Of a stretch of DNA of 64,000 nucleotides, positions 22,894 through 63,192 are shown piece after piece. The stretch is from NCBI GenBank assembly GCA_020072765.1, contig JAIQGD010000001.1, positions 1-64,000 on the forward strand, in the 5' to 3' direction. Below the pieces are notes generated by a model, which made no database searches, was not told the origin of the DNA, and was given only the letters and a program-made list of their open reading frames with translations. Position numbers and translations under genes: made by a program. Source of the stretch: Terriglobia bacterium (GTDB lineage: Bacteria > Acidobacteriota > Terriglobia > Acidiferrales > UBA7541). Position 1 is the stretch's first letter. Each line of letters begins with the position of its first letter.

Positions 22894-24225
22894 ATGCTGA
22901 ATGCAAACCGACAAATGTTGCCGATGGGCTCCAACCGGCGATGGTTTTGGCTGACACTGGCGCTCTCCAGCGTCACGATTGCCGGCCTAATATTCGGGAT
23001 GTCGGAACTGATCGAAGTGCTCTTCTTTCGGCATGTCGATGAGATCACTCTGCATTACATGTACCTCAGCCGCAGCGTACTCAGTTCGCTTGTCCTCACA
23101 TTCTGGGCGGCATGGTTCGTGTTGCGTGAACGGCGTGCGCACGAACTCCGGTTGCGCCGCTCGAACGAGCGTTACCGCGGAATCCTGGAGACCACCCCAG
23201 GCGCCGTCGTGCTTTACGACAGAGACCTTCGGGTGCGAGAGTGGAATGCATCCGCCGAGCGGCTATACGGTTATACCGCCGAGGAGGCCGTCGGCCAGCC
23301 GCTTCCCCCCGTGACAGTCGAAAGGCGACCGGAAGTCGGGGAGCTGATACGAAGGGTCCAGGAGGGGCGCCCCGTGCTTGACCTCGAAACACAGCGGCAG
23401 GCGAAAGACGGTTGCCTCGTGGATGTTCAGCTCAGCCTCCTGCCTTTCACGGAATACGGGGAAACAATGTTCCTGGAAGTGACTCAGGACATCCGCGAAC
23501 GCATACGGTTGCGCCAGAAACTGCTGGAACTGGAAAAGCTGACTACTATGGGTGAAATGGCGGCCGGCACCGCGCACCACCTGAACACTCCGCTGGCCGC
23601 GATGCTGCTGCGGATGCGAATGGTGCGTGAGCGCGTCACGGACGCCGAGGTTACATCGGATTTGGAGCAATTGGAAACCAGCCTCCGTTTTTGCCAGCAA
23701 TTTGTCCGTCGCCTGCTCGACTTCAGCCGGCGGCCGGAGATTGAGAAGCGCGCCGAGCCGTTGCGCGCCACGCTGGAGTCGGTTATCAGCTTTCTTTCGC
23801 CGCAACTCTTGGAGAAGCGCATCCGCTTCCACGCCGTATTGGAGGGACTGGATGGCATCAAGGTGATAACGGACCGCAACCAGATGGAAGCGCTATTTTT
23901 GGTCTTCCTGAGCAACGCGGTGGATGCGGTGGTGAGCGGGGGCGAAGTTACGATTGCGTGCAGCCGCGTGCCGGACGAGCGCGTCGAACTTCGAATTACC
24001 GACAACGGATGCGGCATCGAAGGCAGCGACCTGGAACACATCTTTGAGCCATTCTTCACCACCAAGCCGCCGGGCAAGGGCACAGGCCTCGGCCTGGCGC
24101 TGGCTCGGAATATTCTTCGTGAGCATGGAGGTGCAGTGCGTTTCGAGAGCGCTCGCGGGCAGGGCACGACGGTATATGTCGTGTTGCCGACGTGTGCCGA
24201 AGTTGTCGCAGGGGCAAATTCATGA
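22894..24225 (+). CDS. PAS-domain sensor histidine kinase
   Basis: The 443-residue kinase has two N-terminal membrane helices (FWLTLALSSVTIAGLIFG and SVLSSLVLTFWAAWFVL) flanking a short periplasmic loop. A PAS domain at about residues 90-205 follows (YRGILETTPGAVVLYD ... WNASAERLYGYTAEEAVG). The H-box reads MAAGTAHHLNTPLAAML. The N-box is VFLSNAVDAV, the G1 box DNGCGI, the F-box FEPFFTTKP and the G2 box GTGLGLALA. It would phosphorylate the regulator encoded next, whose ATG overlaps its stop by four bases. The periplasmic sensing region is only about 35 residues, so the PAS domain may be the main sensor. Confidence 0.9.
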   Translation: MLNANRQMLPMGSNRRWFWLTLALSSVTIAGLIFGMSELIEVLFFRHVDEITLHYMYLSRSVLSSLVLTFWAAWFVLRERRAHELRLRRSNERYRGILETTPGAVVLYDRDLRVREWNASAERLYGYTAEEAVGQPLPPVTVERRPEVGELIRRVQEGRPVLDLETQRQAKDGCLVDVQLSLLPFTEYGETMFLEVTQDIRERIRLRQKLLELEKLTTMGEMAAGTAHHLNTPLAAMLLRMRMVRERVTDAEVTSDLEQLETSLRFCQQFVRRLLDFSRRPEIEKRAEPLRATLESVISFLSPQLLEKRIRFHAVLEGLDGIKVITDRNQMEALFLVFLSNAVDAVVSGGEVTIACSRVPDERVELRITDNGCGIEGSDLEHIFEPFFTTKPPGKGTGLGLALARNILREHGGAVRFESARGQGTTVYVVLPTCAEVVAGANS

Positions 24226-25601
24226 AACCGGCAGAGAGGTACACCATTCTGGTGGTTGACGACGACGCCACACTGGCGAACGCGCTTCGCGATTTCCTCC
24301 GCAAGGACGGACATCAGGTGGAACTCGCATTATCCGGAGACGAGGCCCTGGCTGTTTATGACCGCACGCCGGGCATTCATCTTGCGCTCATCGACCTCAT
24401 GATGCCGCTGATGGACGGCATCACACTCATGGACAAGTTGCACGAGCGCAATCCAGACCTCGCGGTGATGATCATGACCGGGTACGGCACCATCGAGACG
24501 GCTGTGGAATCGATGCGCCACGGAGCAGAGGACTACCTGACCAAGCCGATTGAACCGGACGTCGTGCGAAAGAAAATCGGCCGCGTGCTTGAGATATTCG
24601 GATTGCGCAATCGCGTGGCGGAACTGGAATCCGCGCGGGGTGACGGATCTCCTGCCTTTGACGCATTGATATTCGTTTCTCCGGCGATGCAAAAAATCGT
24701 GGAGCGAGCGCGCACGGTCGCACAGACCGATGCTTCCGTGCTCCTGCTCGGCGAGACCGGAACGGGGAAGGAGATGCTGGCGCGAGCGATCCACGGCGCC
24801 AGCGAACGCCACGCCAAACCCTTCGTGGCCGTCAACTGCGGTGGCCTGCCGCGCGACTTGGTGGAGAGCGAGTTGTTCGGCTACCGCCGCGGGGCGTTCA
24901 CAGGTGCTTACGCGGATTCGGCCGGCCTGTTCGCCTCCGCGCATGGAGGCACCATCTTCTTCGACGAGATCGGCGAAACGCCGAAGGAAACTCAGGTAAA
25001 GCTGTTGCGCGTATTGCAGGATCACGAATTCCGCCCTGTCGGGGCGACGCGACCTGTTCCGGCAGACGTGCGAGTGATCGCCGCCACGAACCGATCCTTG
25101 GCCGTGCTCCGCGCAGAATTACTGCGTGAAGATTTCTACTTTCGAATCGCCACGGTCGTCCTGGAGATTCCGCCCTTGCGCAGCCGCGCCGAAGACGTAC
25201 TGGTATTGGCGCAACACTTTGTCCGCAACGTCTCGGAACGCTGCGATCGTGAAATCAGTCTCCATCCCAGCGCACTCGATCTCTTGCTCCGCTACTCATT
25301 TCCAGGCAACGTCCGTGAACTCCAGAACCTGATCGAGAGCGTGACGGCGGTTTCGAAAGACGATCCGCAGGCGATCACGGACCGGCAACTGAAACCCCTG
25401 CTACAGTCCGTGCCCGCCGGACCAGCCAGCTCGGTTCTGCAGGAAACGCTTGCCCTCGATCAACTGGAGCGCATGGCCATTGAACGTGCCCTGGAGCTCT
25501 CCCGAGGCAACCGCACGAAGGCCGCTTCGCTGCTGGGCGTTTCGCGCGACACCCTGTACCGCAAGCTGCGCGATTGGAAACTCGAAGTGACAGATTCGTA
25601 A
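24222..25601 (+). CDS. Sigma-54-dependent NtrC-family response regulator
   Basis: This 459-residue activator has a receiver domain (VVDDDA, phospho-acceptor in LALIDLMMP, conserved YLTKP), a sigma-54 AAA+ domain with Walker A GETGTGKEML, the sigma-54 contact loop RRGAFTGAYADS, Walker B GGTIFFDEIGE, and a Fis-type HTH at the C-terminus (GNRTKAASLLGVSRDTLYRKL). The track starts at 24192; the ATG at 24222 overlaps the kinase stop and is preferred. The gene lies directly upstream of the tetrahaem cytochrome gene, and candidate sigma-54 promoters occur at 25686 and 27195, so the cytochrome genes are its probable targets. Confidence 0.93.
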   Translation: MKPAERYTILVVDDDATLANALRDFLRKDGHQVELALSGDEALAVYDRTPGIHLALIDLMMPLMDGITLMDKLHERNPDLAVMIMTGYGTIETAVESMRHGAEDYLTKPIEPDVVRKKIGRVLEIFGLRNRVAELESARGDGSPAFDALIFVSPAMQKIVERARTVAQTDASVLLLGETGTGKEMLARAIHGASERHAKPFVAVNCGGLPRDLVESELFGYRRGAFTGAYADSAGLFASAHGGTIFFDEIGETPKETQVKLLRVLQDHEFRPVGATRPVPADVRVIAATNRSLAVLRAELLREDFYFRIATVVLEIPPLRSRAEDVLVLAQHFVRNVSERCDREISLHPSALDLLLRYSFPGNVRELQNLIESVTAVSKDDPQAITDRQLKPLLQSVPAGPASSVLQETLALDQLERMAIERALELSRGNRTKAASLLGVSRDTLYRKLRDWKLEVTDS

Positions 25602-25685: not shown

Positions 25686-25701
25686 TGTCACAGTGTTTGC
25701 T
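25686..25701 (+). promoter_or_regulatory. Candidate sigma-54 promoter upstream of the tetrahaem cytochrome gene
   Basis: TGTCAC-N5-TTGCT matches the -24/-12 consensus TGGCAC-N5-TTGCW except for one base in the -24 GG. It is about 90 bases upstream of the ATG at 25792. The -24 mismatch is in an important position, so confidence is moderate. Confidence 0.4.
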
Positions 25702-25791: not shown

Positions 25792-27042
25792 ATGGTTGAC
25801 GACCAGAATCGGCGAATACCGATCGCCGTCGTAGTATGGGCGCTGGCGGCATTGGCGGTCGTCGCCGGGGTGTCAGCCCTCCTGATCCACCAACAGCGGC
25901 GAACCGAGAACCGTGGGGCGGAATACCTGTCAGAGAGCCCGGCGGCGGGCAGTGCCGTTTTTCGGAAGAAGGGCTGCGTCAATTGCCACCAGGTCAACGG
26001 CGTTGGCGCGAGCACCGGCTCTGACTTGGCGCACTACGGGTCTGCGGAGCACAGCCTGCCACAACTGGTCACGGCGATGTGGAACCATGCGCCTCGGATG
26101 TGGGAGCAAATGCAAGAGCGGCATCTTCCGTATCCCAGTATGGAAGACCGGGAGATTGCGCAGATCTTCACCTACATCTACATGTCGCGTCACGTGGCTC
26201 TCCCGGGTGACCCTGCAAGCGGTCACACGTTGTTCGAAGAGAAAGGCTGCGTGCACTGTCATGCGGTGGCCGGAGCCGGTGGTGCGGTGGGCCCAGACCT
26301 GGCGCGGATTCCGGAAGCTGTTTCCGGGATGCAGTGGATGAGCGCGCTCTGGAACCATTCTTCGGCGATGCAATCCAAGATGACGGAAATGGGAGTCGCG
26401 TGGCCGAAGTTTGCCGGCCAGGACATCGACGACATCTATGCGTATGTGCGGCAGAACGCTTCGCCCGCAACAATCGTCCATGACCCAAATCCCGACCCGG
26501 AGAACGGCTGGGGGTTGTTCCAAAGCAAGGGTTGTATGTCGTGCCATGGAATCAAAGACGAAGGTGGCCAAGTGGGTTCCAGCCTCGGACCCAATGGTGA
26601 TCTTCCCGCAACCTTCAGCAAGCTGGGCGAACTGATGGTCACCGCTGCACCCGCAATGACGGAGGAGATGCGCAAAGAGGGAATGCAACCGCCGCATTTG
26701 ACAGCTCAAGACATGACGGACATCTTTGCCTTCCTCTACAGCTTGCGTTATGTGGAGCCGTCAGGCTCGGCAGCGGTAGGCCAGAGCGTGTTCTCCTGGC
26801 GCGGTTGCAACCGCTGTCATGGGAGTAGCGCGCAGGGTAGTTCCCGCGGGCCCGCACTGCGCGGCCGGGGCGAGCACTACACGTCCATGGGGCTCGCTTC
26901 CTCTTTTTGGCGACACGGTGCCAAGATGTACGACCGCACGGAAGGCCCCAGAACCGAACGGGCATCACTTCTTGAGAGTGACGTTGGCGATCTCATCGCT
27001 TTTCTCAACTCACCTGTCCAGCCTAATAAAAACTCGCGCTAA
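25792..27042 (+). CDS. Membrane-anchored tetrahaem c-type cytochrome
   Basis: The 416-residue protein has an uncleaved-looking N-terminal helix (VVVWALAALAVVAGVSALLI) and four consecutive cytochrome c domains with CVNCH, CVHCH, CMSCH and CNRCH. Each domain repeats a layout of GCxxCH, a GP/GS(S)LG segment, then W-H or W-N-H residues around a Met-rich stretch (MWNHAPRMWEQM, LWNHSSAMQSKM, ELMVTAAPAMTEEM, FWRHGAKMYD), with a Met as the probable distal ligand. It is probably a periplasm-facing electron carrier on the inner membrane. CGAGAGG precedes the ATG. It is the first cytochrome gene after the two-component system. Confidence 0.88.
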   Translation: MVDDQNRRIPIAVVVWALAALAVVAGVSALLIHQQRRTENRGAEYLSESPAAGSAVFRKKGCVNCHQVNGVGASTGSDLAHYGSAEHSLPQLVTAMWNHAPRMWEQMQERHLPYPSMEDREIAQIFTYIYMSRHVALPGDPASGHTLFEEKGCVHCHAVAGAGGAVGPDLARIPEAVSGMQWMSALWNHSSAMQSKMTEMGVAWPKFAGQDIDDIYAYVRQNASPATIVHDPNPDPENGWGLFQSKGCMSCHGIKDEGGQVGSSLGPNGDLPATFSKLGELMVTAAPAMTEEMRKEGMQPPHLTAQDMTDIFAFLYSLRYVEPSGSAAVGQSVFSWRGCNRCHGSSAQGSSRGPALRGRGEHYTSMGLASSFWRHGAKMYDRTEGPRTERASLLESDVGDLIAFLNSPVQPNKNSR

Positions 27043-27194: not shown

Positions 27195-27210
27195 TGGCCA
27201 AACGCGTGCT
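27195..27210 (+). promoter_or_regulatory. Candidate sigma-54 promoter upstream of the mono-haem cytochrome gene
   Basis: TGGCCA-N5-GTGCT keeps both invariant dinucleotides (GG at -24, GC at -12) with the required ten-base spacing. It is about 104 bases upstream of the ATG at 27314 and downstream of the regulator gene cluster. Confidence 0.45.
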
Positions 27211-27313: not shown

Positions 27314-27643
27314 ATGAGAACGAAGATGATGTTGGGACTACTTGTGATGGTGACGTTCGCTGGGATCGCCTCGGCGCAGGACGCAGCCGCCGGAAAAGCT
27401 CTCTTTGCTTCCACGTGCGCGGTCTGCCACGGGGCCGACGCCTCGGCGAATACGACCATGGGAAAGACCCTGAAGATTCCCAATTTTCACACGCCAGAAG
27501 TACAGAAGCAGTCCGATGCGGAATTGACGGCCATCATCACCAAAGGCAAAGGGAAGGTGATGCCGGCGTTCGAAGGAAAGCTGACGAGAGAACAAATGTC
27601 GCAGCTCGTGGCATACATCCGCGAGGTCGGCAAACAGCAGTAG
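27314..27643 (+). CDS. Small periplasmic mono-haem cytochrome c
   Basis: The 109-residue protein has a signal peptide (MLGLLVMVTFAGIASAQ) and one class I cytochrome c domain with haem motif CAVCH and probable Met ligand in GKVMPAFEGKLT. The C-terminal helix SQLVAYIREVGKQQ is typical. GGAGGA lies five bases before the ATG. It is followed after 67 bases by the porin-cytochrome fusion gene and closely resembles the domains of the trihaem protein at 29294, suggesting duplication. It would shuttle electrons in the periplasm. Confidence 0.9.
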   Translation: MRTKMMLGLLVMVTFAGIASAQDAAAGKALFASTCAVCHGADASANTTMGKTLKIPNFHTPEVQKQSDAELTAIITKGKGKVMPAFEGKLTREQMSQLVAYIREVGKQQ

Positions 27644-27710: not shown

Positions 27711-29171
27711 ATGAGGCAATTCAGAATTGTCATGCTCTCCACGTTGGCTCTGGTCATTCTCCTGGGCGCTGGCACCGCGAACGCGTTGCCGATGTTTGCG
27801 CGCAAGCTCGGCGTTCCTTGCCAAACCTGCCACACAACCATCCCGGTTCTGAACGAGGTCGGTTACAAGTTCCGTGCCGCCGGCTACCGCATGCCGGATC
27901 AGATCGGCAAGGCGCAGGATCAGAAGTTCGAACTGGGCGATTACTTCTCCGCCCGCCTCCAGGCACGCTACGACGCCCAGGTGACCAACCAGCCCAACGG
28001 TGTCGCCGCCGCCAATCTCCTGCCGAGCGGCGCGGCGGGCCCCCGTACCAGCACGAACTCCTTCAACTTCCAGGAGTTTACGCTGTATCCGCTGACTGGC
28101 TCCTGGGGGAAGTACTTCGGCTCCCTGTCGGAGCTGTCGGTTTCCCCGGAAGACTACTTCGAAATTGAGAACGCCTACCTGCGGGTTGTGATGGGCAACG
28201 AGAAGAACTTCTTCACCTCGCGCATCGGCATATTCCACCCCTGGGAAGGCTTTGGAGCCTCGGACCGCCCGTACTCCAACGCGCGCACTTTGTTTCAAAC
28301 CGCTCCGATTTCGGCCTCGTATAAAGGAATTCCCTTCCTGTTCCAGCCGTGGGGCTTGGACGAGGCCGGCGTCGAAATTGGCGGCGACTTCAACAAGCTG
28401 TCGGTGCGGGCGGCGATCCTAGGAGGCACCTTCATGCGCTGGGATGAGGAGGCCCAGGCATTTCTCGCCTTCCCGGCGCAGACCGGACCGTGGAAAGGCG
28501 CGAATCAGGCGGTGGCGGCGCTGGGGAAGTCCGTGAATTCCGCGGCGCATAGCACGCCGGACTTCTCGGCCCAGGCCACTTACATCCTGCATCCCGACGG
28601 CGGCGGCATCTCGCTCCTCTATTACCGGGGCAATATGTCCACGCCGAGTGTCTGCGTGAACGACGCGGGCACACTCACGAAGATCGGGAGTACCGCGGTG
28701 ATCGATGGCAAGAGCCAGCTCTGTGCGGGCAGTCTTGTGGACATGACCGACCGCAGCACGCTGTTCCGCAACAATCTGGACCGCGTGGCAGCGTATGCGT
28801 CGTATCCCATTGGCAAGCACTTCCTGCCCATGGGGGGAGTAAGTTACGGACGCGATAGCACCCCGCTGACGTACGATCTGAGCGGGACCGGGGCTGCGGT
28901 AACGTCCCTGCGCCATTTCGACAGCAAGGGCGCGTTTGCCGAAGGTGTTTACCATGTCGGCCAATACGTCACCACCGGATTTCGGTATGACTGGTTCCAT
29001 CCGAACTTCGACAAACACAACACGCAGTGGGCCGTCACGCCGTACGTGAACATCGCACTGCTGAATGGTTTCCAGGTCATCGCGGAATACCAGCACCGCG
29101 ATTTCCAACTCGATCTGGTTCACCATCGGCAGAACGATACGTTCCAGGCCCGGCTTATCTTCGTCAAGTAA
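27711..29171 (+). CDS. Outer-membrane beta-barrel with N-terminal mono-haem domain (Cyc2-like porin-cytochrome)
   Basis: The 486-residue product has a signal peptide (VILLGAGTANA), then immediately LPMFARKLGVPCQTCHTTIP, a single CXXCH followed by NEVGYKFRAAGYRM. The rest (about residues 60-486) has the alternating aromatic/hydrophobic strand pattern of an outer-membrane barrel and ends in a strand with aromatic penultimate residues (FQARLIFVK). The same order, FAR-x-G-x-x-C-x-x-C-H-x6-LNxxGxxFxAxGY, is known from Cyc2, a fused cytochrome-porin that passes electrons across the outer membrane in iron oxidisers. Related haem-barrel proteins of unknown role also exist, so iron oxidation itself is not shown. 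AAGGAGG precedes the ATG. A strong terminator follows. Confidence 0.75.
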   Translation: MRQFRIVMLSTLALVILLGAGTANALPMFARKLGVPCQTCHTTIPVLNEVGYKFRAAGYRMPDQIGKAQDQKFELGDYFSARLQARYDAQVTNQPNGVAAANLLPSGAAGPRTSTNSFNFQEFTLYPLTGSWGKYFGSLSELSVSPEDYFEIENAYLRVVMGNEKNFFTSRIGIFHPWEGFGASDRPYSNARTLFQTAPISASYKGIPFLFQPWGLDEAGVEIGGDFNKLSVRAAILGGTFMRWDEEAQAFLAFPAQTGPWKGANQAVAALGKSVNSAAHSTPDFSAQATYILHPDGGGISLLYYRGNMSTPSVCVNDAGTLTKIGSTAVIDGKSQLCAGSLVDMTDRSTLFRNNLDRVAAYASYPIGKHFLPMGGVSYGRDSTPLTYDLSGTGAAVTSLRHFDSKGAFAEGVYHVGQYVTTGFRYDWFHPNFDKHNTQWAVTPYVNIALLNGFQVIAEYQHRDFQLDLVHHRQNDTFQARLIFVK

Positions 29172-29246: not shown

Positions 29247-29293
29247 GATCTGCTGCCAGGTTCGAAACTGTGGCAGGATTGGCCGATAGCCCT

Positions 29294-30361
29294 ATGGGAA
29301 GATTCCTTTCAGCGATGGCGATAGCGATGTTGTTGGCCGTCTGTGCCGGCAGTGCGTTCGGCCAGACCGATGGCCGAAGCCTGTATATTGCCAAGTGCTC
29401 GGCCTGCCACGCCCGCGATGGCAGTGGCAACGGCATGATCGGGCGCAGCCTGAACCTGGGCGACATTCGTCCCGCGATCAAAAGTATGACGGACGAGCAG
29501 CTCCGGCAGCTTATTCTCCAGGGCCAAGGCAAGATGCCGGCCAACAAGAAGTTCGATGACGAAAAGATCGCCAGCCTGGCTCTCTTCTTACGTGACCTCG
29601 CGGCGGGTAACCCCGACACCGGACGAGCGGTAGCGCAGGCCCAGGCGCAACCGCTGCCGGACGTGGACAGGGTTTATCAGGCCAAATGCTCCGCCTGTCA
29701 CGGTGAGGACGGCACCGGCCGGACCACCATCGGCAAGAGTCTGAGCATTCCCGACCTGATGTCAACAGCAGTCCAAGGCCGGAGCGATGAGGAACTAGCA
29801 CGGATAATTGCCGCGGGCAAAGGCAGGATGCCCAGCTATGCCAAGGTTTTCAATCCCGTGCAAATCGGCGAATTCGTGTCGTACATACGGGTACTTCCCG
29901 AAGGCCCGAGCGCGAGAACACCCGTTGCAAGCCCCAAACCGTCCGCCTCAACGCCACAGCCGCTCGAAATTCCGCCGGGAAAGACCGCGCGGCCGGAAGC
30001 AGTTTCTGCGACTCCTGACCCCGCAGCCAGCGCTGCCCCCAAGAAGGCCGCAGCACCAAGACCGGCCACCGTCCCGGCCGCCACGCCGGGCGTCGTGAAT
30101 GCTCCCGGGAGCGGGCGGCAGATTTACGTCTCCAAATGTACTGCCTGCCACTCGAAGGACGGCTCAGGCACGGGCACTATCGGCAGGAGCATGCGGATTC
30201 CCAGCCTCACCTCGCCGCAGGTGCAAGCGCAGAGCGACGAAAAGCTGGCCAGCGCCATCAGCAACGGCACTGGCAAAATGCCCACCTACAAGAAGAAGTA
30301 CAGCCCGGCGGAGATTCAGCAATTGGTTGCTTACATTCGCGAGCTGGGCAACAAGCATTGA
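29294..30361 (+). CDS. Periplasmic trihaem c-type cytochrome with Pro/Ala linker
   Basis: Three tandem mono-haem domains each open with (K)C(S/T)ACH followed by (A/G/S)xDG(S/T)G and end in a short helix: CSACH at about residue 30, CSACH at about 130 and CTACH at about 280, with Met-ligand regions GQGKMPANKKF, GKGRMPSYAKV and GTGKMPTYKKK. A roughly 70-residue Pro/Ala/Ser-rich linker separates domains two and three. The track starts at a GTG at 29270; the ATG at 29294 begins the signal peptide (MGRFLSAMAIAMLLAVCAGSAFG) and is preferred. The three domains look like a triplication of the 27314-type cytochrome. It lies after a terminator, so it needs its own promoter. Confidence 0.85.
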   Translation: MGRFLSAMAIAMLLAVCAGSAFGQTDGRSLYIAKCSACHARDGSGNGMIGRSLNLGDIRPAIKSMTDEQLRQLILQGQGKMPANKKFDDEKIASLALFLRDLAAGNPDTGRAVAQAQAQPLPDVDRVYQAKCSACHGEDGTGRTTIGKSLSIPDLMSTAVQGRSDEELARIIAAGKGRMPSYAKVFNPVQIGEFVSYIRVLPEGPSARTPVASPKPSASTPQPLEIPPGKTARPEAVSATPDPAASAAPKKAAAPRPATVPAATPGVVNAPGSGRQIYVSKCTACHSKDGSGTGTIGRSMRIPSLTSPQVQAQSDEKLASAISNGTGKMPTYKKKYSPAEIQQLVAYIRELGNKH

Positions 30362-31035: not shown

Positions 31036-32988
31036 ATGAGACCGAAGCATTTCACGATCACAGTGATTCTCGCGGCGCTGTCGTGTGTCGCCGCTGCGGA
31101 GAAGGCGCCCGATACGGGGAGGATGGAGCAGATCGTGCAGTCTTACGTTTCGGCGAAGCAATTCATGGGCAGCGTGCTGGTGGCGCAAGGGAACGACATC
31201 GTGCTCGACAAAGGCTACGGGTTTGCCGACCTCGAGTGGAACGTCCCCAATTCGCCGACGACGAAGTACCGGCTGGGCTCGATCACCAAACAATTCACAG
31301 CGGCTTCCATCATGTTGCTGGAGGAACGCGGGAAGCTCAGCGTGAATGATCCGGTAAAGAAGCACATGCCCGACGCGCCGGGAGCGTGGGACAAGATCAC
31401 GATTTTTCATCTGCTGACGCATACATCCGGGATTCCCAACTTTACGAGCTTTCCGGACTATGCGTCAAAAGAGCCGTTTCCCGCGACGCCCGAGCAACTA
31501 GTGGCGCGGTTTCGCGACAAGCCACTCGATTTCGTGCCGGGCGAGAAGTACAGCTACAGCAACTCGGGCTATGTCTTGCTGGGCTACTTGATCGAGAAGA
31601 TTAGCGGGGAAAGCTACGCAAAGTTCGTACAGGAGAATATTTTCACTCCGCTGGGCATGAAGGACTCGGGCTATGACTCGAATTCCGCGATCATCTTGCG
31701 CCGCGCGCGAGGGTATTCCATGGGGCCCAGCGGAATCGTGAACGCGAGCTACGTGGATATGAGCACGCCGCTATCAGCAGGAGGGCTCTACTCCACGACG
31801 GAAGATCTGTGGCGCTGGGAACAGGCGCTTTTTGGAGGCAAGGTCCTTTCGGCGGCATCGCTTGCGAAGATGACGACCCCAAACACGGGTGATTATGCGT
31901 TTGGTCTGATGGTGCATACCGTACGCGGACGCAAAGTAATCGAGCATAACGGCGGCATCGAGGGATTCAATACCGCCCTGCGGTACTTCCCTGAAGACAA
32001 ACTGACCGTGATTGTCCTAGGAAATCAGAATGGAGGCGTGCCTGATGCTATCGGGGGAAGCCTTGCGTCGGTGGCTCACGGCGAGAAAGTCACGCTGATA
32101 TCAGAGCGGAAGGAGGTTCATCTCGATCCGAAGGTATTTGACGGTTACACGGGAAGGTACCAGCTGACGCCGGATTTCATGATCGCGATTACGCGAGTGG
32201 GAGATAAATTCTTTCTGCAGGCGACAGCGCAGGCACAAGTCGAGATTTTCGCGGAAGGCGAACGCGACTTTTTCTTGAAGGCGGCGGACGCACAGGTCAC
32301 ATTCGCCACCGACGGAACAGGCAGGGCAATCGAGCTGATTCTCCATCAGAATGGCCGGGACCAGCACGGCAAGCGCGTGGGGGATGTGCCGCCGGTGAAA
32401 GAGCACCAGGAAGTGGCGGTGGACCCAAAGCTATTCGATGGTTACGTAGGACAGTATGATTATGCGCCGGGTATGGTGATGAACATTACGCGCGAGGGAG
32501 ATCGTTTGATGGCGCAACTGACCGGCCTGCAGAAGGTCGAGTTGCATGCCGAGGGGGGCCGCGATTACTTTGTGAAGGAGGTGGATGTACAGATTACATT
32601 CGTGCCCGGAACGGACGGGCGTTCCACGGAGATCGTGGTACACCGGAGTGGACTCGATGAAAACGCGAAACGCATCGGCGACGCGTTGCCACCAAAAGAA
32701 GAGAAAGAACAGAAAGTACTGACGATTGATCCGAAAGTATTGGATGGGTACGTGGGCACCTACCAATTGGCCCCGACTTTCGCGATTACGATCTCCCGAG
32801 AAGGAGGTCGCCTGTTCGAGCAGGCGACCAACCAGCCCACATTCGAGATTTTCCCGGCGAGCGAGAAAGAGTTCTTCTTGAAGGTCGTGGACGCGCAAAT
32901 AACGTTCGTCACAGACAGCAGCGGCCGCACCACGAGTTTGATTCTTCATCAGGGCGGTCAAAACGTGCCAGCCCGCCGCATCGAATGA
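31036..32988 (+). CDS. Secreted class C beta-lactamase-family serine hydrolase with three C-terminal repeats
   Basis: The 650-residue protein has a signal peptide (HFTITVILAALSCVAAA) and a penicillin-binding-like catalytic domain at about residues 25-345. The SxxK motif is GSITKQF, the YxN motif KYSYSNSGY and the third motif VIEHNGGIEGF. After it come three copies of a module of about 95 residues, starting VHLDPKVFDGYTGRYQL, VAVDPKLFDGYVGQYDY and LTIDPKVLDGYVGTYQL. Each has a hydrophobic core strand around (A/N)ITR(V/E)G and ends with (L/V)ILHQ/VVHRSG. Most relatives carry one such lipocalin-like module. The substrate, a peptide or ester, is unknown. Confidence 0.85.
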   Translation: MRPKHFTITVILAALSCVAAAEKAPDTGRMEQIVQSYVSAKQFMGSVLVAQGNDIVLDKGYGFADLEWNVPNSPTTKYRLGSITKQFTAASIMLLEERGKLSVNDPVKKHMPDAPGAWDKITIFHLLTHTSGIPNFTSFPDYASKEPFPATPEQLVARFRDKPLDFVPGEKYSYSNSGYVLLGYLIEKISGESYAKFVQENIFTPLGMKDSGYDSNSAIILRRARGYSMGPSGIVNASYVDMSTPLSAGGLYSTTEDLWRWEQALFGGKVLSAASLAKMTTPNTGDYAFGLMVHTVRGRKVIEHNGGIEGFNTALRYFPEDKLTVIVLGNQNGGVPDAIGGSLASVAHGEKVTLISERKEVHLDPKVFDGYTGRYQLTPDFMIAITRVGDKFFLQATAQAQVEIFAEGERDFFLKAADAQVTFATDGTGRAIELILHQNGRDQHGKRVGDVPPVKEHQEVAVDPKLFDGYVGQYDYAPGMVMNITREGDRLMAQLTGLQKVELHAEGGRDYFVKEVDVQITFVPGTDGRSTEIVVHRSGLDENAKRIGDALPPKEEKEQKVLTIDPKVLDGYVGTYQLAPTFAITISREGGRLFEQATNQPTFEIFPASEKEFFLKVVDAQITFVTDSSGRTTSLILHQGGQNVPARRIE

Positions 32989-47477: not shown

Positions 47478-49766
47478 ATGAAACGCCGAACGTTCCTGAA
47501 ACTTTCCACAGTGGGCGGTGCTGGCGCCGCGCTGGCCGGGTGCGGCGAACAGACGAATCAGCTGATTCGTTTCATCCCGGACGAAACGCTGGTGCCGGGC
47601 GTGGCCACATGGAGACCCGGCATCTGCACGCTATGCCCCGCGGGTTGCGGCCTGCAAGTGCGGATCATGGAAGGCGACGCCGAGGTGATCCGGAACGGCC
47701 AAGCCGGCGTTGTGAAAATGGGACTGGCCAAGAAACTGGAAGGCAACCCGCAGCATCCCGTGAATCACGGCACGTTGTGCGCTCGTGGCCAGGCCGGTCT
47801 GCAAGTCACCTTCAATCCCGATCGTGTGCGGCATCCCCTGAAGCGCGTGGGACCGCGCGGCTCGGGAAAATTTGCCGAGATCAGCTGGGACGAAGCCCTT
47901 CAGGAACTTCTCACCCATCTCTCCCCGCTGGCTTCCCCCGGCTCCGCTCATTCGATGGCCTTCCTGGCGGGCCCGCTCCGGGGACAACGGCGCGTGTTGA
48001 TCGAGCGATTTCTCTCCGCGTTTGGCGCCGCGCAGTTTGTTCCTTTCGAGTTGTTCGACGATTCGGTGTTGCGGGCGGCCAACCAGCTCAGCTTCGGCCG
48101 CGACCAACTGCCGACATTTGACCTCGCCGAGTCCAATTTCGTGATGTCGTTTGGCGCGGACTTCCTGGGCACATGGAATTCCCCGATGGCCCAAAGTGTC
48201 GCGTACGGGATCATGCGCCGGAATCGTCCGGGCGCCCGCGGAAAATTCGTGCAGGTCGAATCGCGCATGTCCCAGACCGGAGCGAACGCAGACGAGTGGA
48301 TCCCGGCCCATCCCGGCACCGAGGGTCAACTGGCCCTGGGGATCGCTCACATCATCCTGAGCGAGCACCACCGGTCGCCAGAGGCCGCCGGCGCCGCCGG
48401 ATCACGCATCGAAGGATGGCACAACGGTTTGCCGGAGTATTCCCCCGAGGCGGTTGCATGGAAGACGGGAGTTCCTCCGCAAACGATCATGCGGTTGGCG
48501 CGCGAGATGGCCGTGCAAACACCGGCTGTCGCCATCGTGGGAGGCGCCCCTCTCGCCCAGACCAATGGATTGTTCACCGCGCTCGCAATCAACGCTCTCA
48601 ATGCCCTCCTGGGCGGCGTCGGAAAGCCTGGTGGCCTTCAGTTCACGCCTCGGCCTCCGTTGCCCGGCCATGGATCGTCCGAGACGAATTCGAAGGGACT
48701 GACTGGCACTTCGGTTCGTTCGCTGGCGCAACATATTCTCTCCGGCCAGGCGCGCACGGTCGAATCGCTCCTGCTGTACGAGGCGAATCCCGTGTTCGCC
48801 ACACCAGCGACGTGGCACGTGAAGGAGGCTCTGGAAAGCGTCCCCTTCATCGCCAGCTTGGGCCACTTCATTGATGAAACGAGCGTTCTCGCCGACCTGA
48901 TTCTCCCCGACCATTCCTACCTGGAGTCGTGGATGGATGACGTCCCGGAATCCGGGACCACCGCGGCCGTGGTGAGTGTGGCGCCACCGGCCATGCACCC
49001 TTTGCACAACACGCGCGCGATGCCGGACGTCCTTCTCGACGTCGCCCACCGCCTGGGGGGACGGGCAAGCCAGGCACTGCCGTGGAAGAGCTATGAAGAG
49101 ATGCTGCAGGCGGCGCTCGCTCCTCTCGCGCATTCTCCTAGCTCGATCACCGCCAGCAGCCCGGACGACTTCTGGACAAAAGTAAAAGACCAGGGCGGCT
49201 GGTGGAGCGCGAAAGGCAGCGCTGCACCCGAACGAGAGAGTGCCGCCCATGCCGTCCCTGCGCTGAAGAACGAAGAGGCACAGTTCGATGGACCGGCTCC
49301 TGGGTATCCGTTCTACTTTCTGCCTTACGCTTCGCAACAGTTCTTCGACGGGCGGCACGCCAATCTTCCCTGGATGCAGGAACTGCCGGAAGTTCTTTCG
49401 ACCGGAATGTGGGGCACCTGGGTGGAGATCAACCCGCAGACCGCGGCGACGCTGAAAATCGAACAGGGCGACCTTCTGGAAGTGGCGTCGCGGCACGGCT
49501 CGGTCCGCGCGCCCGCTCTGCTGTCGCCGGGCATTGCACCGGACGTCGTCGCCATGCCGGTCGGCCAGGGACACGTGGAATACGGCCGCTATGCCAGCGG
49601 CCGCGGCGCGAACCCGATCAAGATCCTCGCGCCGGACGTTGAACGTACCACAGGCTCATTGGCCTGGGCGGGAACCCGCGTGAGTGTCGCAAAGGCAGGG
49701 ACCGGCGAGCTAATTCTGCTGTCGGGCGGCCCCACCAAGTGGAGCCAGGAGAGAGTGAGGCGGTAA
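47478..49766 (+). CDS. Molybdopterin oxidoreductase-family subunit (ActB1/QrcB-like), Tat lipoprotein
   Basis: The 762-residue protein starts with a Tat-like signal (KRRTFLKLSTVGGAGAAL) and a lipobox (LAGCGEQ), so it is probably an exported lipoprotein. It retains a [4Fe-4S] motif (CTLCPAGCG ... GTLCARGQ). The MopB fold continues with NFVMSFGADFLGTWNSPM, VAIVGGAPLAQTNG and the C-terminal MGD-type domain (GMWGTWVEINPQTAATLKIEQGD). In alternative complex III this fold is the N-terminal half of ActB and binds no molybdopterin; in Qrc it is a separate subunit, as here. It forms the periplasmic base of the complex with the ferredoxin subunit next to it. Confidence 0.87.
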   Translation: MKRRTFLKLSTVGGAGAALAGCGEQTNQLIRFIPDETLVPGVATWRPGICTLCPAGCGLQVRIMEGDAEVIRNGQAGVVKMGLAKKLEGNPQHPVNHGTLCARGQAGLQVTFNPDRVRHPLKRVGPRGSGKFAEISWDEALQELLTHLSPLASPGSAHSMAFLAGPLRGQRRVLIERFLSAFGAAQFVPFELFDDSVLRAANQLSFGRDQLPTFDLAESNFVMSFGADFLGTWNSPMAQSVAYGIMRRNRPGARGKFVQVESRMSQTGANADEWIPAHPGTEGQLALGIAHIILSEHHRSPEAAGAAGSRIEGWHNGLPEYSPEAVAWKTGVPPQTIMRLAREMAVQTPAVAIVGGAPLAQTNGLFTALAINALNALLGGVGKPGGLQFTPRPPLPGHGSSETNSKGLTGTSVRSLAQHILSGQARTVESLLLYEANPVFATPATWHVKEALESVPFIASLGHFIDETSVLADLILPDHSYLESWMDDVPESGTTAAVVSVAPPAMHPLHNTRAMPDVLLDVAHRLGGRASQALPWKSYEEMLQAALAPLAHSPSSITASSPDDFWTKVKDQGGWWSAKGSAAPERESAAHAVPALKNEEAQFDGPAPGYPFYFLPYASQQFFDGRHANLPWMQELPEVLSTGMWGTWVEINPQTAATLKIEQGDLLEVASRHGSVRAPALLSPGIAPDVVAMPVGQGHVEYGRYASGRGANPIKILAPDVERTTGSLAWAGTRVSVAKAGTGELILLSGGPTKWSQERVRR

Positions 49767-49805
49767 TCAGGAACCGCGCACAAACGGCCATGAGGAGAAA
49801 CGCTG

Positions 49806-50507
49806 ATGGCGCATAGATGGGGAATGGTAATCGACCTCGACCGCTGCACCGGCTGCGAGGCATGTGTGGCGGCGTGCCACGCCGAAAACAACATCGCCAC
49901 CGTTGACGCGGCGCAGGCCGCCAACGGCCGGACCATGCACTGGATCCATGTGGAGCGCTATTGGGAAGGCGAGTTCCCGAACGTGCGCGCGAGGTTTCAA
50001 CCGGTCCTCTGCCAGCAGTGCGATGCGGCTCCCTGTGAGCCGGTCTGCCCCACGTATGCGAGTTATCACAACTCGGACGGTCTCAACGCCCAGGTTTACA
50101 ACCGGTGTATCGGCACTTTTTATTGCGCCGATGCCTGTCCTTATACGGCGCGGTACTTCAACTGGTTTAATCCGGTTTGGGACAAGCCGCTGAATCTCCA
50201 GCTCAATCCCGATGTCTCGGTCCGCGGGGTCGGCGTGATGGAAAAATGCACGTTTTGCATCCAGCGCATCACTGCGGCAGAGATCCAGGCGAAGGCAGAG
50301 AACCGCGACGTGAAGGACGGGGAGGTCAAACCGGCCTGCGTGCAGTCCTGTCCCACGGCGGCCATGGTTTTCGGGGATCTGGAGGATCCGAGCAGCCAGG
50401 TCTCTCGCCTGGCGGGTTCGATGCGAGCCACCACGCTGCTTGCCGAAGTAGGCACGTTTCCCAAAGTCATCTATCTCGAAAGAGAGTCTTCGCATGCCAA
50501 CGAATAG
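49806..50507 (+). CDS. Iron-sulfur subunit of the complex III-like enzyme (ActB2/QrcC-like)
   Basis: This 233-residue ferredoxin-type subunit has four cluster sites. Two are complete: CTGCEACVAAC with CPTA, and CTFCIQRI with CVQSCPTA; CQQCDAAPCEPVC completes another. The set NRCIGTFYCADACPY has Thr where the second Cys is expected. The same replacement occurs in ActB and PsrB-like proteins and is associated with a [3Fe-4S] cluster. RGVGVMEKCTFCIQRI is typical of the complex III group. In most alternative complex III enzymes this domain is fused to the MopB subunit. It has no signal of its own and would be carried with its Tat-exported partner. It overlaps the NrfD gene by 14 bases. Confidence 0.88.
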   Translation: MAHRWGMVIDLDRCTGCEACVAACHAENNIATVDAAQAANGRTMHWIHVERYWEGEFPNVRARFQPVLCQQCDAAPCEPVCPTYASYHNSDGLNAQVYNRCIGTFYCADACPYTARYFNWFNPVWDKPLNLQLNPDVSVRGVGVMEKCTFCIQRITAAEIQAKAENRDVKDGEVKPACVQSCPTAAMVFGDLEDPSSQVSRLAGSMRATTLLAEVGTFPKVIYLERESSHANE

Positions 50508-51903
50508 CATGGCGCAGGCCAATGTGATTGATATTAAAGACGAACAGGTCCGCGAGGATCTGCTGCGGCCGTTATTCCATACGTCTCGGCGATTCTACGT
50601 CCTCGTATTTCTCCTGGTGGCCATTGGCCTTCCCGGCATCGTGACCTTTGTATATCAGATCTACACGGGGATGGGCGTGTCGGGGCTTACGCGCCCTATT
50701 TTCTGGGGCTTCTATGTCACGAACTTTGTTTTCTGGATCGGTATCAGTCACGCGGGAACGCTGATTTCCGCCATTCTTCGCCTGGTCAACGCCACTTGGC
50801 GGCGTCCGGTCACTCGCTGCGCCGAAGCGATCACCGTTTTTGCCCTGGCGATCGGCGCTCAGTACCCGATCATTCACCTTGGCCGCTCCTGGTTGTTTTT
50901 CTGGCTGGTGCCGTATCCCAGCGAACGCGGCATCTGGCCGAATTTCCGATCTCCTCTGGTTTGGGACTTCTTCGCCATCAGCACGTACATCACGGGCAGC
51001 TTGACTTTTTTGCTTCTCCCGATCATTCCGGATTGGGCCATGGTGCGGGATCGGGCGACGGGGTTGCGCAAACGAATCTACACCGTCCTTGCCTTCGGCT
51101 GGCGAGGCACGCCTCGGGAATGGCATCGGCTCGAAATGGCCATGAAAATCATGGCCGTCACCATCCTTCCTGTCGCGGTCTCCGTTCACACGATTGTGTC
51201 GTGGGACTTCGCCATGGCGCCCGTCCCCATGTGGCACTCCACCGTCTTCGGCCCGTACTTCGTGGCGGGAGCCATCTTCAGCGGGATTGCGGCCCTGATT
51301 ATCGCCATGGCCCTGTTGCGCAAGACCCTGCATCTGGAGGCTTACCTGAAACCCAGCCACTTCAGCAATCTGGGGAAGCTTCTGCTGGTGATGAGCCTGC
51401 TGTGGATCTACTTCATCTTCGCCGAACGGCTGACCGTGTGGTACGGCAACCAGCCGGCCGAGATGGCTGCCTTCTGGTCCATTCAAAGCGGGAGATTCGC
51501 AATTCTGTTCTGGACGATGGTCACCTGCAATTTCCTGATTCCGTTTCCGATTCTCGCGATCAAAAAACTGCGGACCATCACTGGCACCGTGATTGCGGCC
51601 TCGACGATCGTCGTGGGAATGTGGCTGGAGCGCTTTTTAATCGTGGTTCCTCCCCTGGAGCACAAATACCTCCCCTACGACTGGGGAAGATATCACCCGA
51701 GTTGGGTCGAGATCATGATTACAGTCGGGACAGCGTCGGGCATGGTCCTGCTGTACGTTCTATTCGCAAAGTTCGTGCCGCTGATTTCGATTTGGGAATT
51801 GAAAGGCGGGCAGCACACGAATCCCGTTCCGCATCAGGCGCAGCCCGCGGTGGCCGGGACCCAGGTTCGCCTGGACCCCACTTTGCCGGCAGCCAATAGC
51901 TAA
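50494..51903 (+). CDS. NrfD/PsrC-family quinone-binding membrane subunit (ActC-like)
   Basis: The 469-residue integral membrane protein has about ten helices and the ActC-type segments RPIFWGFYVTNFVFWIGISHAGTLISAILRL, WRRPVTRCAEAITVFAL, PLVWDFFAISTYITGSLTFL, HTIVSWDFAMAPVPMWHSTVFGPYFVAGAIFSG and FAERLTVWYGNQPAEM, all well conserved in alternative complex III and Qrc. It oxidises menaquinol at the periplasmic side and passes electrons to the FeS subunit. ATG 50494 overlaps the previous gene; ATG 50509 is an alternative. The DUF3341 gene follows after 6 bases. Confidence 0.92.
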   Translation: MPTNSMAQANVIDIKDEQVREDLLRPLFHTSRRFYVLVFLLVAIGLPGIVTFVYQIYTGMGVSGLTRPIFWGFYVTNFVFWIGISHAGTLISAILRLVNATWRRPVTRCAEAITVFALAIGAQYPIIHLGRSWLFFWLVPYPSERGIWPNFRSPLVWDFFAISTYITGSLTFLLLPIIPDWAMVRDRATGLRKRIYTVLAFGWRGTPREWHRLEMAMKIMAVTILPVAVSVHTIVSWDFAMAPVPMWHSTVFGPYFVAGAIFSGIAALIIAMALLRKTLHLEAYLKPSHFSNLGKLLLVMSLLWIYFIFAERLTVWYGNQPAEMAAFWSIQSGRFAILFWTMVTCNFLIPFPILAIKKLRTITGTVIAASTIVVGMWLERFLIVVPPLEHKYLPYDWGRYHPSWVEIMITVGTASGMVLLYVLFAKFVPLISIWELKGGQHTNPVPHQAQPAVAGTQVRLDPTLPAANS

Positions 51904-60425: not shown

Positions 60426-61661
60426 TCAATCGCCGGCTGCGCCCTCTGGAGGTTGGGTGGGGGAAGATTCCTTCCAGGGCGGAAGCAGTTTCACAAAAAT
60501 GTAGAGCAGGACGAAGGGCACCGCCAGTAACACGACCGACACAAACAGCCCTTCCATCCCCGTCAGCGCCATCTTGTACACCGTCAGCCCACGCAGGCTC
60601 TTGGAGAACAACTGGCCGCCGATCACCACGTTCCACCGCGTGCTGAAGATGCCGATCTGGATCAGGACGGCGCTGCCCAGATAGACAAGTCGCCGCAACT
60701 CCTCTGGAAACCGCACCAGAGGGCGGCCAAACGCGGGGCTCACGAACGCAAGGCAGAGTAGCGGTAACACCGTCCCGGTCAGCGCCTGTAACACAATCAA
60801 GCTGAGAAATAAACGCGTCGAGATCAGCGTAGACAATATCTTGATGGATTCTTCAGCTTCGTAGAGCCGGTGAATGAAATCCAGGATCTCCAGCGAGAAA
60901 TCCAGGATCAAGGCGTAGAACAGAAACGATGCCAGCTTGTCCAGGCAAGCCATCTCGAACCCGCGGCGAACCAATCCAGTCAGCAGATACAGGATCAGCA
61001 CCAGGGCAATACCGGAGACAATGGCGGAGAACAGAAAGACGATGGGAATCAGCACGCTGCTCCACCACGGATTCGCTTTGACGGAGCCGAAAATAAAGCC
61101 CACGTAGCCATGCAGCAGGAAGGCCGAAGGAATGCCGATGATGGTGATGAAGCGCACGGCCTTGCGATCGAACTCCACCGCTGCTTCGGAGATATCCGTG
61201 GCTCCCAGCGTCAGGATCAAATGAATCCATCTGCGCAGCCCGTGCTCGTTCCGCGCCCACAGAACCAAGTCCCGCCGGTAGTCGAACCAGATCTCCAGCA
61301 GGAGCACCACGGCCAGATACCACGCATAGATGAAGCCGAACATCGCCATCGCCGAATGCGTGTTCGGAGTGAGGAAAATCTCCAGGGAGCGCTCCGGATG
61401 CCCGAGGTGGAGCAGGAGCGGGAGAGGCGCAATCAGCAGGAATGCCAGCGCCGTCAACAGCGCCAGCCGGTACGTGGGCTCCACTTCCTTGACGTTGAAG
61501 ACGCGCTCGAGCGAAGCCAGAATGAACGCTCCCGCCACGAGCCCCGTGATGTAGGGATATACTACGATTAGCAAGCTCCATTGCAGCTCGACTTCGTTGG
61601 GATAGATGTAGCCAGACACCTGCTGCAGCACGTTGTTCAATTGCTCAGTGAGCCCCTGCAC
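60426..61661 (-). CDS. NrfD/HybB-family quinone-interacting membrane protein
   Basis: The 411-residue protein has about ten helices: YPYITGLVAGAFILASLERV, APLPLLLHLGHPERSLEIFL, SAMAMFGFIYAWYLAVVLLL, FITIIGIPSAFLLHGYVGFI, LIPIVFLFSAIVSGIALVLIL and others. The segments HLGHPER and LHGYVGFIFG with WWSSVLIPIVFLFSAIVSG are characteristic of the NrfD/PsrC/DsrP quinone-binding subunits. It starts with GTG two bases after the stop of the ferredoxin gene, whose end carries GGGGAGGT as ribosome binding site. With the FeS and octahaem proteins it forms a second quinone-linked module, different from the ActC-type protein at 50494. Confidence 0.88.
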   Translation of the reverse strand: MQGLTEQLNNVLQQVSGYIYPNEVELQWSLLIVVYPYITGLVAGAFILASLERVFNVKEVEPTYRLALLTALAFLLIAPLPLLLHLGHPERSLEIFLTPNTHSAMAMFGFIYAWYLAVVLLLEIWFDYRRDLVLWARNEHGLRRWIHLILTLGATDISEAAVEFDRKAVRFITIIGIPSAFLLHGYVGFIFGSVKANPWWSSVLIPIVFLFSAIVSGIALVLILYLLTGLVRRGFEMACLDKLASFLFYALILDFSLEILDFIHRLYEAEESIKILSTLISTRLFLSLIVLQALTGTVLPLLCLAFVSPAFGRPLVRFPEELRRLVYLGSAVLIQIGIFSTRWNVVIGGQLFSKSLRGLTVYKMALTGMEGLFVSVVLLAVPFVLLYIFVKLLPPWKESSPTQPPEGAAGD

Positions 61662-61663
61662 GG

Positions 61664-62467
61664 CTAGCGTACCTCCCCGTCCAGATTCGCGTAGTAGACT
61701 TTGGGCTCGGTATTGAGCTGCGGCTTGAGCACCTGAATTTCGTTGAAGCGCACAAAGCGGGCCAGCGGACTGCTACGCGCCGTCACATCTCCAAACACTC
61801 GCGCCCCGGTGGGGCATACCTCCACACAGGCCGGGACTTTCCCCTGCACCACGCGGTGATAGCAGAAGGTGCACTTCTCGGCCGTGCGCGTGACGGGATT
61901 CAGGAAGCGCGCCCCGTACGGACAGGCCTGGATGCAGTAGCGGCATCCAATGCAATAGTCCTTATCCACGAGCACGACACCATCACGGGTGAGGAAGGTG
62001 GCGCCGACCGGACACACCTGCACACAGGGAGGGTTGGCGCAGTGGTTGCAGAGCTTGGGCACAAAGAAGGTGCGCAGGATGCCCTTTTCGCTGACCGTGG
62101 AGGGAAACCCTTCGATTCCGCCATTGGGACTGGTTACCACGGTTTGTCCGTCCGTCGTGATCACGTAGCGCTCCACCCAGGTGCGGAAGTAGAACGGCTC
62201 GCGCGGGACATTGTTCTCGGTCTTGCAAGCATCCACGCAACGGCCGCAGCCGATGCACTTGTTCACACTGATGCCCATCCCGTAGTAGTGCTCTTCCGGC
62301 TTGTAGTTCGGCTCCTCGGCGCCTGCAGCCACGCCTTCCGCCACGGCGATGGTCGCCAGCAGTAACGGAGCCGCCGCCGCGCACTGCTTCAAAAATTCCC
62401 GCCGCTCCTGGGAGACTTGCTCCGGTGCGCCGGCAATAGCTTGAGGAGGCTTCGCTTCAGGGGTCAT
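61664..62467 (-). CDS. Tat-exported four-cluster ferredoxin subunit (HybA/DsrO-like)
   Basis: From the ATG at 62467 (GGAGGTCCC upstream; the track uses 62581) the product is 267 residues. The N-terminus has a Tat signal (ERREFLKQCAAAAPLLLATI). Four complete [4Fe-4S] sites follow: CIGCGRCVDAC, CNHCANPPCVQVC, CIGCRYCIQAC and CTFCYHRV with CVEVCPTGA. It has no Cys replacement, unlike the subunit at 49806. It would sit in the periplasm between the NrfD-like membrane protein and the octahaem cytochrome. Its ATG overlaps the stop of the cytochrome gene (ATGA). Confidence 0.9.
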   Translation of the reverse strand: MTPEAKPPQAIAGAPEQVSQERREFLKQCAAAAPLLLATIAVAEGVAAGAEEPNYKPEEHYYGMGISVNKCIGCGRCVDACKTENNVPREPFYFRTWVERYVITTDGQTVVTSPNGGIEGFPSTVSEKGILRTFFVPKLCNHCANPPCVQVCPVGATFLTRDGVVLVDKDYCIGCRYCIQACPYGARFLNPVTRTAEKCTFCYHRVVQGKVPACVEVCPTGARVFGDVTARSSPLARFVRFNEIQVLKPQLNTEPKVYYANLDGEVR

Positions 62468-63192
62468 GGGACCTCCGGAAAATGGGCGTAGTGGCATTGC
62501 CAGCAGACGTAGCGCTCCCCATGAGTACTTAGGTCCACGCGCGCAACGTCGGGAGCTCCCTTCGCTCCCTGGGCATGGCACTGCCCGCAGAATTCACGGG
62601 TCTGCGGCTTCGTGGGGGTGCTCAACAACGGATTGATCTTGTGCGTTTCCTCGACGTGGTGGCACGTGGTGCAAGGAACCGTGGTGTGCTTCGACAGAGC
62701 CTTGGTTCTGGCGATTTCACCGTGGCAGGCGCTGCACTCCTGGGGCGTGTGCGGAGGAACCGGCGCGTGCGGGTTGTGGCAGGTGATGCAGGGCCGCCCG
62801 GGGTTGTGGCTGACGGGATCAATTTGCGGAAAGCCGGTCGGCCGCGACGGGTCATAGCCATGGCACAGCGGGCAAAAACCACGCTGGCGAGGGGCCGGGG
62901 GCTTGTGATCCGCGGGGGATTCCACATGCGCCGCCTGAGCGCCATGGCAGACCTCGCACGCCACGCTCCGGTGCCGCGCCTCGTCGTGAACCTTGGCGAT
63001 ATCCGGATGGCATAACGCACACGCTTCGTGCCCCGCATAGACTTCGGGCTTGGAAGCATTGGCATCAATCGCGGCGGCTCGGTAATGACCCAAAGCGCCG
63101 AAGGTCTTGGGGACCATGTAATGCCGGGCAACGGTCAAGCTCCCACCCAGGATCAGGAAGACAACCACCAGACGATTCACCTGTTGGGGCAT
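62464..63192 (-). CDS. Octahaem c-type cytochrome
   Basis: The 242-residue protein has an N-terminal signal anchor (LVVVFLILGGSLTVA) and eight CXXCH motifs: CALCH, CEVCH, CPLCH, CITCH, CSACH, CTTCH, CGQCH and CWQCH. This is about one haem per 28 residues, a dense multihaem wire. Histidines between motifs (DEARHRSVACEVCH, HNPGRPCITCHNPHAPVPPH) would complete bis-His ligation. It is followed with ATGA overlap by the FeS gene and then nrfD-like, so it is the periplasmic electron exit or entry of that module. It does not look like octahaem hydroxylamine or tetrathionate reductases, which are much longer. Confidence 0.9.
   Translation of the reverse strand: MPQQVNRLVVVFLILGGSLTVARHYMVPKTFGALGHYRAAAIDANASKPEVYAGHEACALCHPDIAKVHDEARHRSVACEVCHGAQAAHVESPADHKPPAPRQRGFCPLCHGYDPSRPTGFPQIDPVSHNPGRPCITCHNPHAPVPPHTPQECSACHGEIARTKALSKHTTVPCTTCHHVEETHKINPLLSTPTKPQTREFCGQCHAQGAKGAPDVARVDLSTHGERYVCWQCHYAHFPEVP

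Follow-up and report, generated by a model that had tools for sequence, protein, structure and literature searches.

The 486-residue protein encoded at 27711-29171 (+ strand) of the window, by which we mean the whole 64,000-nucleotide stretch of DNA analysed here, is a putative exported fused cytochrome-porin of a Cyc2-like clade. We refer to it as P0001; 'Cyc2-like' is the right term for its architecture, its haem-domain homology and its fold. New here is the recurrent linkage of such porins with genes for a Rieske protein and cytochrome b, in many cases downstream of a kinase/NtrC pair and with sigma-54-like sites; a cluster of porin, bc complex and NtrC regulator is undescribed in the papers searched, with most subscription journals outside the scope of that search. 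On its sequence and predicted model, P0001 is likely to be an outer-membrane electron conduit. The best explanation of the whole, which we hold with modest confidence to be the true one, is a fused haem-porin conduit with periplasmic partners, a sigma-54 switch and a net inward flow of electrons. Cyc2-like matches are widely taken to indicate iron oxidation, and many of them, especially in Cluster 3, have no assigned function. A conserved operon in which the porin comes with a bc complex, a sigma-54 switch and a flavoprotein defines a specific pathway, makes relatives available for testing and could reveal how soil acidobacteria, which are abundant, trade electrons with iron or humic matter.

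The first-pass annotation had described a signal peptide, a single early CXXCH, FARKLGVPCQTCH and KFRAAGYRM followed by a barrel-like remainder, and all of these are found in this order in the 486-residue frame (Table 1). Small residues ahead of the haem motif are conserved among the aligned relatives of P0001. The sole CXXCH lies at 27819-27833 (residues 37-41, or mature residues 12-16), the haem motif and PXL read CQTCH-TTI-PVL, and the columns of the haem core are invariant or near-invariant in the alignment of P0001 and its relatives. Pfam assigned no family to P0001 (best E 0.04, under the cut-off), NCBIfam gave no match at E ≤ 1 and a sequence search of the PDB returned no chain resembling it. 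A chance open reading frame was ruled out by matches within the phylum, full-length homologues elsewhere and the predicted 16-strand fold. The host had been proposed to be an acidobacterium, and matches from the same phylum bear this out, including Acidobacteria JACOSC010000075.1 and Acidobacteriaceae CAINJJ010000009.1 (same class).

Table 1 Features of P0001 and of its neighbours in the window
Feature	Position	Strand	Details
Histidine kinase	22894..24225	+	Pfam PAS E 2e-14, HisKA E 4e-9, HATPase_c E 6e-25
NtrC-family regulator	24192..25601	+	Sigma54_activat E 5e-63, Response_reg E 3e-26, HTH_8 E 4e-15
Candidate sigma-54 site TGTCACAGTGTTTGCT	25686..25701	+	Upstream of tetrahaem gene; one mismatch, -24 GG
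Tetrahaem c-type cytochrome	25792..27042	+	4 CXXCH; Pfam Cytochrom_C E 1e-34, 4 stretches
Candidate sigma-54 site TGGCCAAACGCGTGCT	27195..27210	+	GG-N10-GC; precedes monohaem and porin genes
Periplasmic monohaem cytochrome c, cbb3/c6-like	27314..27643	+	Pfam Cytochrome_CBB3 E 4e-15
Signal peptide of P0001	27711..27785	+	Residues 1-25, by eye; hydrophobic, ending ANA (23-25) before L
Haem domain core LPMFARKLGVPCQTCHTTIPVLNEVGYKFRAAGYRMP	27786..27896	+	Residues 26-62; start of mature protein
GASDRP motif	28254..28271	+	Residues 182-187; extracellular loop, strands 5-6
P0001-specific extracellular loop	28647..28760	+	Residues 313-350, 38 residues; cysteines C315, C338
Trihaem c-type cytochrome, periplasmic partner	29270..30361	+	3 CXXCH; three CBB3-type domains, Cytochrome_CBB3 E 9e-40

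The AlphaFold2 model of P0001, built on a 16-sequence alignment (pLDDT 75, pTM 0.77), consists of an N-terminal helical domain followed by 16 long strands (residues 81-93, 112-125, 136-144, 151-162, 166-175, 218-227, 230-245 and 284-294 for strands 1-8; 298-312, 351-364, 371-389, 396-415, 420-432, 437-449, 454-466 and 472-485 for strands 9-16), counted by hand in the present analysis with the pair 230-237/240-245 merged as strand 7. Long outer loops alternate with short periplasmic turns in a porin-like manner. Foldseek returned the 16-strand porins PorB, Omp32, OprP and OprO at E values of 1e-11 to 1e-8, with PorB at the top (PorB entries 3a2s, 4aui and 3wi4; OprP/OprO entries 2o4v and 4rjw); the 16-strand barrel expected at first reading is thus upheld by both the strand count and the structural matches. 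The fold of Mariprofundus Cyc2PV-1 has been published as OprO/OprP (PMC8406198) and that of Leptospirillum Cyt572 as PorB (PMC10654088). The insertion at residues 313-350 of P0001, part of which is modelled at pLDDT <50, is missing from its 15 aligned relatives. The constriction loop of porins usually occupies the position between strands 5 and 6; in the model of P0001 this is the loop with the GASDRP motif, in which S184 and D185 are invariant across the subfamily alignment, and it may form the constriction of the pore.

Cyc2 has been defined by a signal peptide with a single CXXCH, AXPXFAR[Q/K][T/Y], PXL, a length of at least 365 amino acids and a 16-strand barrel (Keffer et al. 2021, PMC8406198). 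P0001 has the signal peptide (by eye) and the N-terminal CXXCH, the PXL, 486 amino acids and the predicted barrel; the remaining motif departs from the definition at its last position, where ALPMFARKL ends in Leu and most other members of the P0001 clade have Tyr. In a tree of 71 rows, the P0001 set (16 sequences) forms one clade (support 100/97), a larger set (100/100) joins it with a sister acidobacterial FARKYGVKCYTCH group (L055-L094), and the FARQT-type Cyc2 set is placed elsewhere (99/96). The FARQT-type set comprises nine references from Burkholderiales, Methylocystis, an Acidithiobacillus ferrooxidans plasmid, and acidobacterial and Nitrospirota copies; by our own assignment they are Cluster 2-like with one probable Cluster 1-like sequence (L153), none being a named Cluster 1 or Cluster 3 protein. 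A Cyc2 consensus query served solely as the seed of the plasmid search. A constraint that placed the P0001 and FARQT-type sets together was rejected (AU P = 0.003), although caution is due on the deep branches because the barrels are hard to align. Profile comparison with hhalign gave a probability of 98.7% for the haem domains of the P0001 clade and Cyc2, 5% for their barrels, and 97.5-99.8% for the barrels of the P0001 clade and three other FARK groups.

Canonical Cyc2 was ruled out by the motif Leu, the clade separate from FARQT-type references and the barrel profiles, and we do not file P0001 as Cyc2 because one defining feature fails and the tree sets it apart from those references. The accepted proteins Cyc2, Cyc2PV-1 and Cyt572 share homology at the N-terminus only (PMC5566968), and divergence of the barrel would by itself leave room for a broad 'Cyc2'. 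The earlier label stands for the layout, the haem-domain homology and the predicted barrel, and gives way at the last motif position and in the tree, where a clade separate from Cyc2, the outcome named beforehand as counting against the label, was recovered relative to the FARQT-type references.

A minority possibility, unlikely although deserving serious weight, is that P0001 is a true Cyc2 iron oxidase of Cluster 3, beside Leptospirillum Cyt572. This reading has its mechanism in common with our best explanation, so that the two probabilities overlap; where they part is the family and the choice of Fe(II) as the substrate. The same motif layout, the PorB-like fold published for Cyt572 and a similarity network that ties Cyt572 to homologues from Acidobacteria and Nitrospira (PMC10654088) speak for it, as does a cave MAG survey in which all FeGenie Cyc2 hits belong to Cluster 3, with a role termed uncertain (PMC13264449). 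The Leu at the [T/Y] position and the clade separate from FARQT-type references argue otherwise, and Cluster 3, which holds Cyt572 and many divergent sequences, is the one with the 'most uncertain' function according to the Cyc2 authors (PMC8406198). P0001 may be nearest to this Cyt572/Cluster 3 group.

The P0001 clade is rare and scattered. A search of the phylum found matches in 73 of 297 genomes, with a length-wide match in one alone (G074), and full-length homologues of about 29-51% identity occur across several other phyla. A scan of GTDB species, keyed on the single pattern F[RK][ARL][ALN]G[YF]R[ML]P[DPA], found full-length relatives in MAGs of Ignavibacteria, Bacteroidetes, Nitrospirae, Geobacter, Deltaproteobacteria and Elusimicrobia and in one acidobacterium, together with a partial relative in Lindowbacteria; the counts of relatives measure the reach of this pattern, since it alone decides which are found. 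P0001 itself carries the marks of the clade, namely FRxAG[YF]R[ML]Px[EDQ][IL]G, the GASDRP-type loop and full-length similarity. FARQT-type proteins with canonical Cyc2 barrel signatures are also present in acidobacterial genomes (L009, L014), so both kinds of porin occur in the phylum. In a Nitrospirota sample, the fused cytochrome-porin profile matched 77 of 148 genomes, some of them as many as about five times.

Within the window, P0001 is one of four cytochrome genes, all on the + strand, that have nine CXXCH motifs in total. The tetrahaem product has four class I domains after an N-terminal membrane anchor (read from the sequence) and is likely to be an inner-membrane or periplasmic partner. 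Upstream, the kinase has two N-terminal hydrophobic segments (by eye), and the NtrC-type protein combines a receiver, a sigma-54 activator AAA+ domain and a Fis helix-turn-helix. The two candidate promoter sites are weak on their own: in the window, the pattern searches gave 4 matches versus 2.4 expected for the search that includes the 25686 site, and 13 versus 6.2 for that with the 27195 site. The P0001 cluster in the window includes neither a bc complex nor a flavoprotein. Other genes of the window include a serine beta-lactamase-family protein with three DUF3471 repeats at 31036-32988 (+), 3' of the cytochrome cluster; a molybdopterin oxidoreductase (QrcB-like, under the cut-off) followed by an NrfD-type membrane protein at 47478-51900, a pair that could encode a quinone-linked complex; and, at 60429-63192 (−), an octahaem cytochrome, a DsrO/TtrB-like 4Fe-4S protein and a large membrane protein, near which a cytochrome b/Rieske pair, a decahaem open reading frame and a COX1 gene lie just past the end of the window.

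Among relatives, for which genes were called as simple open reading frame picks, the porin has Rieske and cytochrome b genes no more than about 5 kb away at 8 of the 15 P0001-clade loci with usable flank, the window excluded (L039, L045, L047, L048, L049, L050, L053 and L054), and at 27 of the 31 sister-group loci having 5 kb downstream (hand count), loci that are not independent because many are close kin. The order in the sister group is histidine kinase, NtrC, porin, monohaem cytochrome, GltD-like flavoprotein, Rieske, cytochrome b and multihaem cytochrome. Of 39 sister-group loci, 36 have an upstream regulator of the NtrC type in the same orientation (hand count); within the P0001 clade, the kinase/NtrC pair is upstream in the window and L051 only. 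TGG-N9-TGC[A/T] sites precede the porin gene by about 50 nt in 21 of 41 sister-type loci (versus 0.02 expected per locus), at a near-fixed distance, −123 to −145 when counted from the motif codon (L055-L094), and with the kinase/NtrC pair upstream; the site at 27195 in the window has the same form. One Bacteroidetes MAG (L049:4140-14501) has two fused cytochrome-porins flanking a bc complex, NrfD and a 4Fe-4S gene.

The linkage of porin and bc complex recurs in Omnitrophota (L096, L104) and at a second fused cytochrome-porin (AIPAFSRKYGTSCATCH) of the same genome, which is encoded outside the window on contig C72 (L112:3906-12075, − strand). The operon there runs from the porin through a CarboxypepD_reg-domain protein, a GltD-like flavoprotein, Rieske, cytochrome b and an ExtQ-like b-type subunit to an octahaem cytochrome. 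A 'cupredoxin' label for a C72 gene was dropped, as Pfam gives CarboxypepD_reg alone. The flavoproteins of the sister group and the C72 paralogue are of the GltD/PRK12771 type and NAD(P)-binding, and the cytochromes b of the sister cluster and the paralogue are nearest to ExtP, at 273 and 256 bits versus a cut-off of 290. That the relatives repeatedly stand by a bc complex and a two-component switch makes it probable that they link the cell electrically to its surroundings.

The gene order, the haem-domain homology, the predicted barrel and the linkage of relatives to bc and kinase/NtrC genes are results of the present analysis; from these we infer an outer-membrane site, electron transfer and its direction, an Fe(II) donor and sigma-54 control, as follows. 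One c-type haem in the short N-terminal domain would sit on the periplasmic side of, or inside, a 16-strand outer-membrane pore, through which an extracellular redox partner would reach it and exchange single electrons. The adjacent periplasmic cytochromes, with one, three and four haems, would link P0001 to the inner-membrane chain, and the upstream histidine kinase and NtrC regulator would turn the genes on through sigma-54 promoters. The net direction would be inward, with a soluble donor such as Fe(II) oxidized and part of the electrons driven uphill to NAD(P)H, as in lithotrophs, through a bc complex and flavoprotein. Inward flow is the likeliest direction, given that a bc complex and an NAD(P)-binding flavoprotein accompany the porin genes of relatives; for P0001 this support comes from its relatives and the C72 paralogue. 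Fe(II) oxidation by P0001 is offered here as a hypothesis, as it was in the first-pass annotation. The genome has two COX1-family oxidase genes. No RuBisCO was found in it, which makes Calvin-cycle autotrophy on Fe(II) unlikely.

An outward conduit, in which electrons would pass from the bc complex and periplasmic cytochromes through P0001 to Mn(IV), Fe(III) complexes, humic quinones or a metalloid oxyanion, seems to us rather improbable. It would accord with the bc linkage in relatives, the lack of RuBisCO in the genome and the presence of Geobacter and Ignavibacteria among the members, some of whose kin reduce metals. The linked cytochrome b also argues for outward flow, being nearest to ExtP/ExtQ of the reductive Geobacter ext cluster, in which a porin gene is tied to selenite/tellurite reduction (PMC5877670). 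However, all biochemically tested fused cytochrome-porins (A. ferrooxidans Cyc2, Cyt572 and Cyc2PV-1) oxidize Fe(II) (PMC8406198), and one haem in a narrow pore would fit a soluble partner better than a mineral; electron uptake is slightly favoured. Least probable, and quite doubtful, is a local role in oxidizing a small reductant (reduced sulphur, Cu(I) or nitric oxide) or in redox sensing rather than long-range transfer, which would suit the single haem, the adjacent signal-transduction genes and the several divergent copies in many genomes (the 77 of 148 Nitrospirota are not all likely metal oxidizers), but the recurrent bc complex and cytochrome chains point to bulk electron flow.

We tentatively suggest, at somewhat less than an even chance, that FARK-type fused cytochrome-porins are a large family apart from canonical Cyc2, forming the outer-membrane terminus of a dedicated electron pathway under sigma-54/NtrC control, with a bc complex and an attached NAD(P) flavoprotein at the inner membrane. 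The family would be frequent among soil and peat Acidobacteriota, with scattered members in groundwater phyla, and P0001 would be a variant with its bc partner encoded elsewhere in the genome.

Compared with known systems, P0001 shares with the Cyc2 of A. ferrooxidans and Mariprofundus PV-1 the signal, a homologous single-haem domain, the AxPxFARK core, PxL and the 16-strand barrel, and c-type cytochrome genes adjoin it, as they do Cyc2. It differs in having FARKL rather than FAR[Q/K][T/Y], in its separate clade, in a barrel with undetected homology (5%), and in lacking the LNNNPT and NYDGxGRNAxDNN stretches of the Cyc2 set; no rus or cox genes stand beside it in the window. Cyt572/Cyc572 of Leptospirillum, compared by description, likewise has a predicted PorB-like 16-strand barrel and an N-terminal CXXCH, and Acidobacteria and Nitrospira are among its published network neighbours; unlike P0001, its gene contexts are published as unclustered and flanked by mobile elements (PMC10654088). 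The Acidobacteriaceae/Bryobacterales FARKYGVKCYTCH group is closer, being sister in the tree, homologous in the barrel at 99.8% and also preceded by a kinase and NtrC regulator, but it has the GltD-like flavoprotein, Rieske, cytochrome b and multihaem cytochrome where the P0001 cluster has tetra-, mono- and trihaem cytochromes. The Geobacter ext cluster (ExtI, ExtP/ExtQ) groups a porin gene with a cytochrome b complex, as do the loci related to P0001, whose cytochrome b is nearest to ExtP but under the ExtP cut-off; ExtI is described as a porin lacking any fused haem domain (PMC5877670), whereas that of P0001 is fused. MtrAB, MtoAB and PioAB are, like P0001, conduits of outer-membrane porin and haem, but their haems belong to a decahaem protein distinct from the 26-strand barrel that houses it (PMC8406198), whereas P0001 falls outside this class, with its haem motif and predicted 16-strand barrel in one polypeptide.
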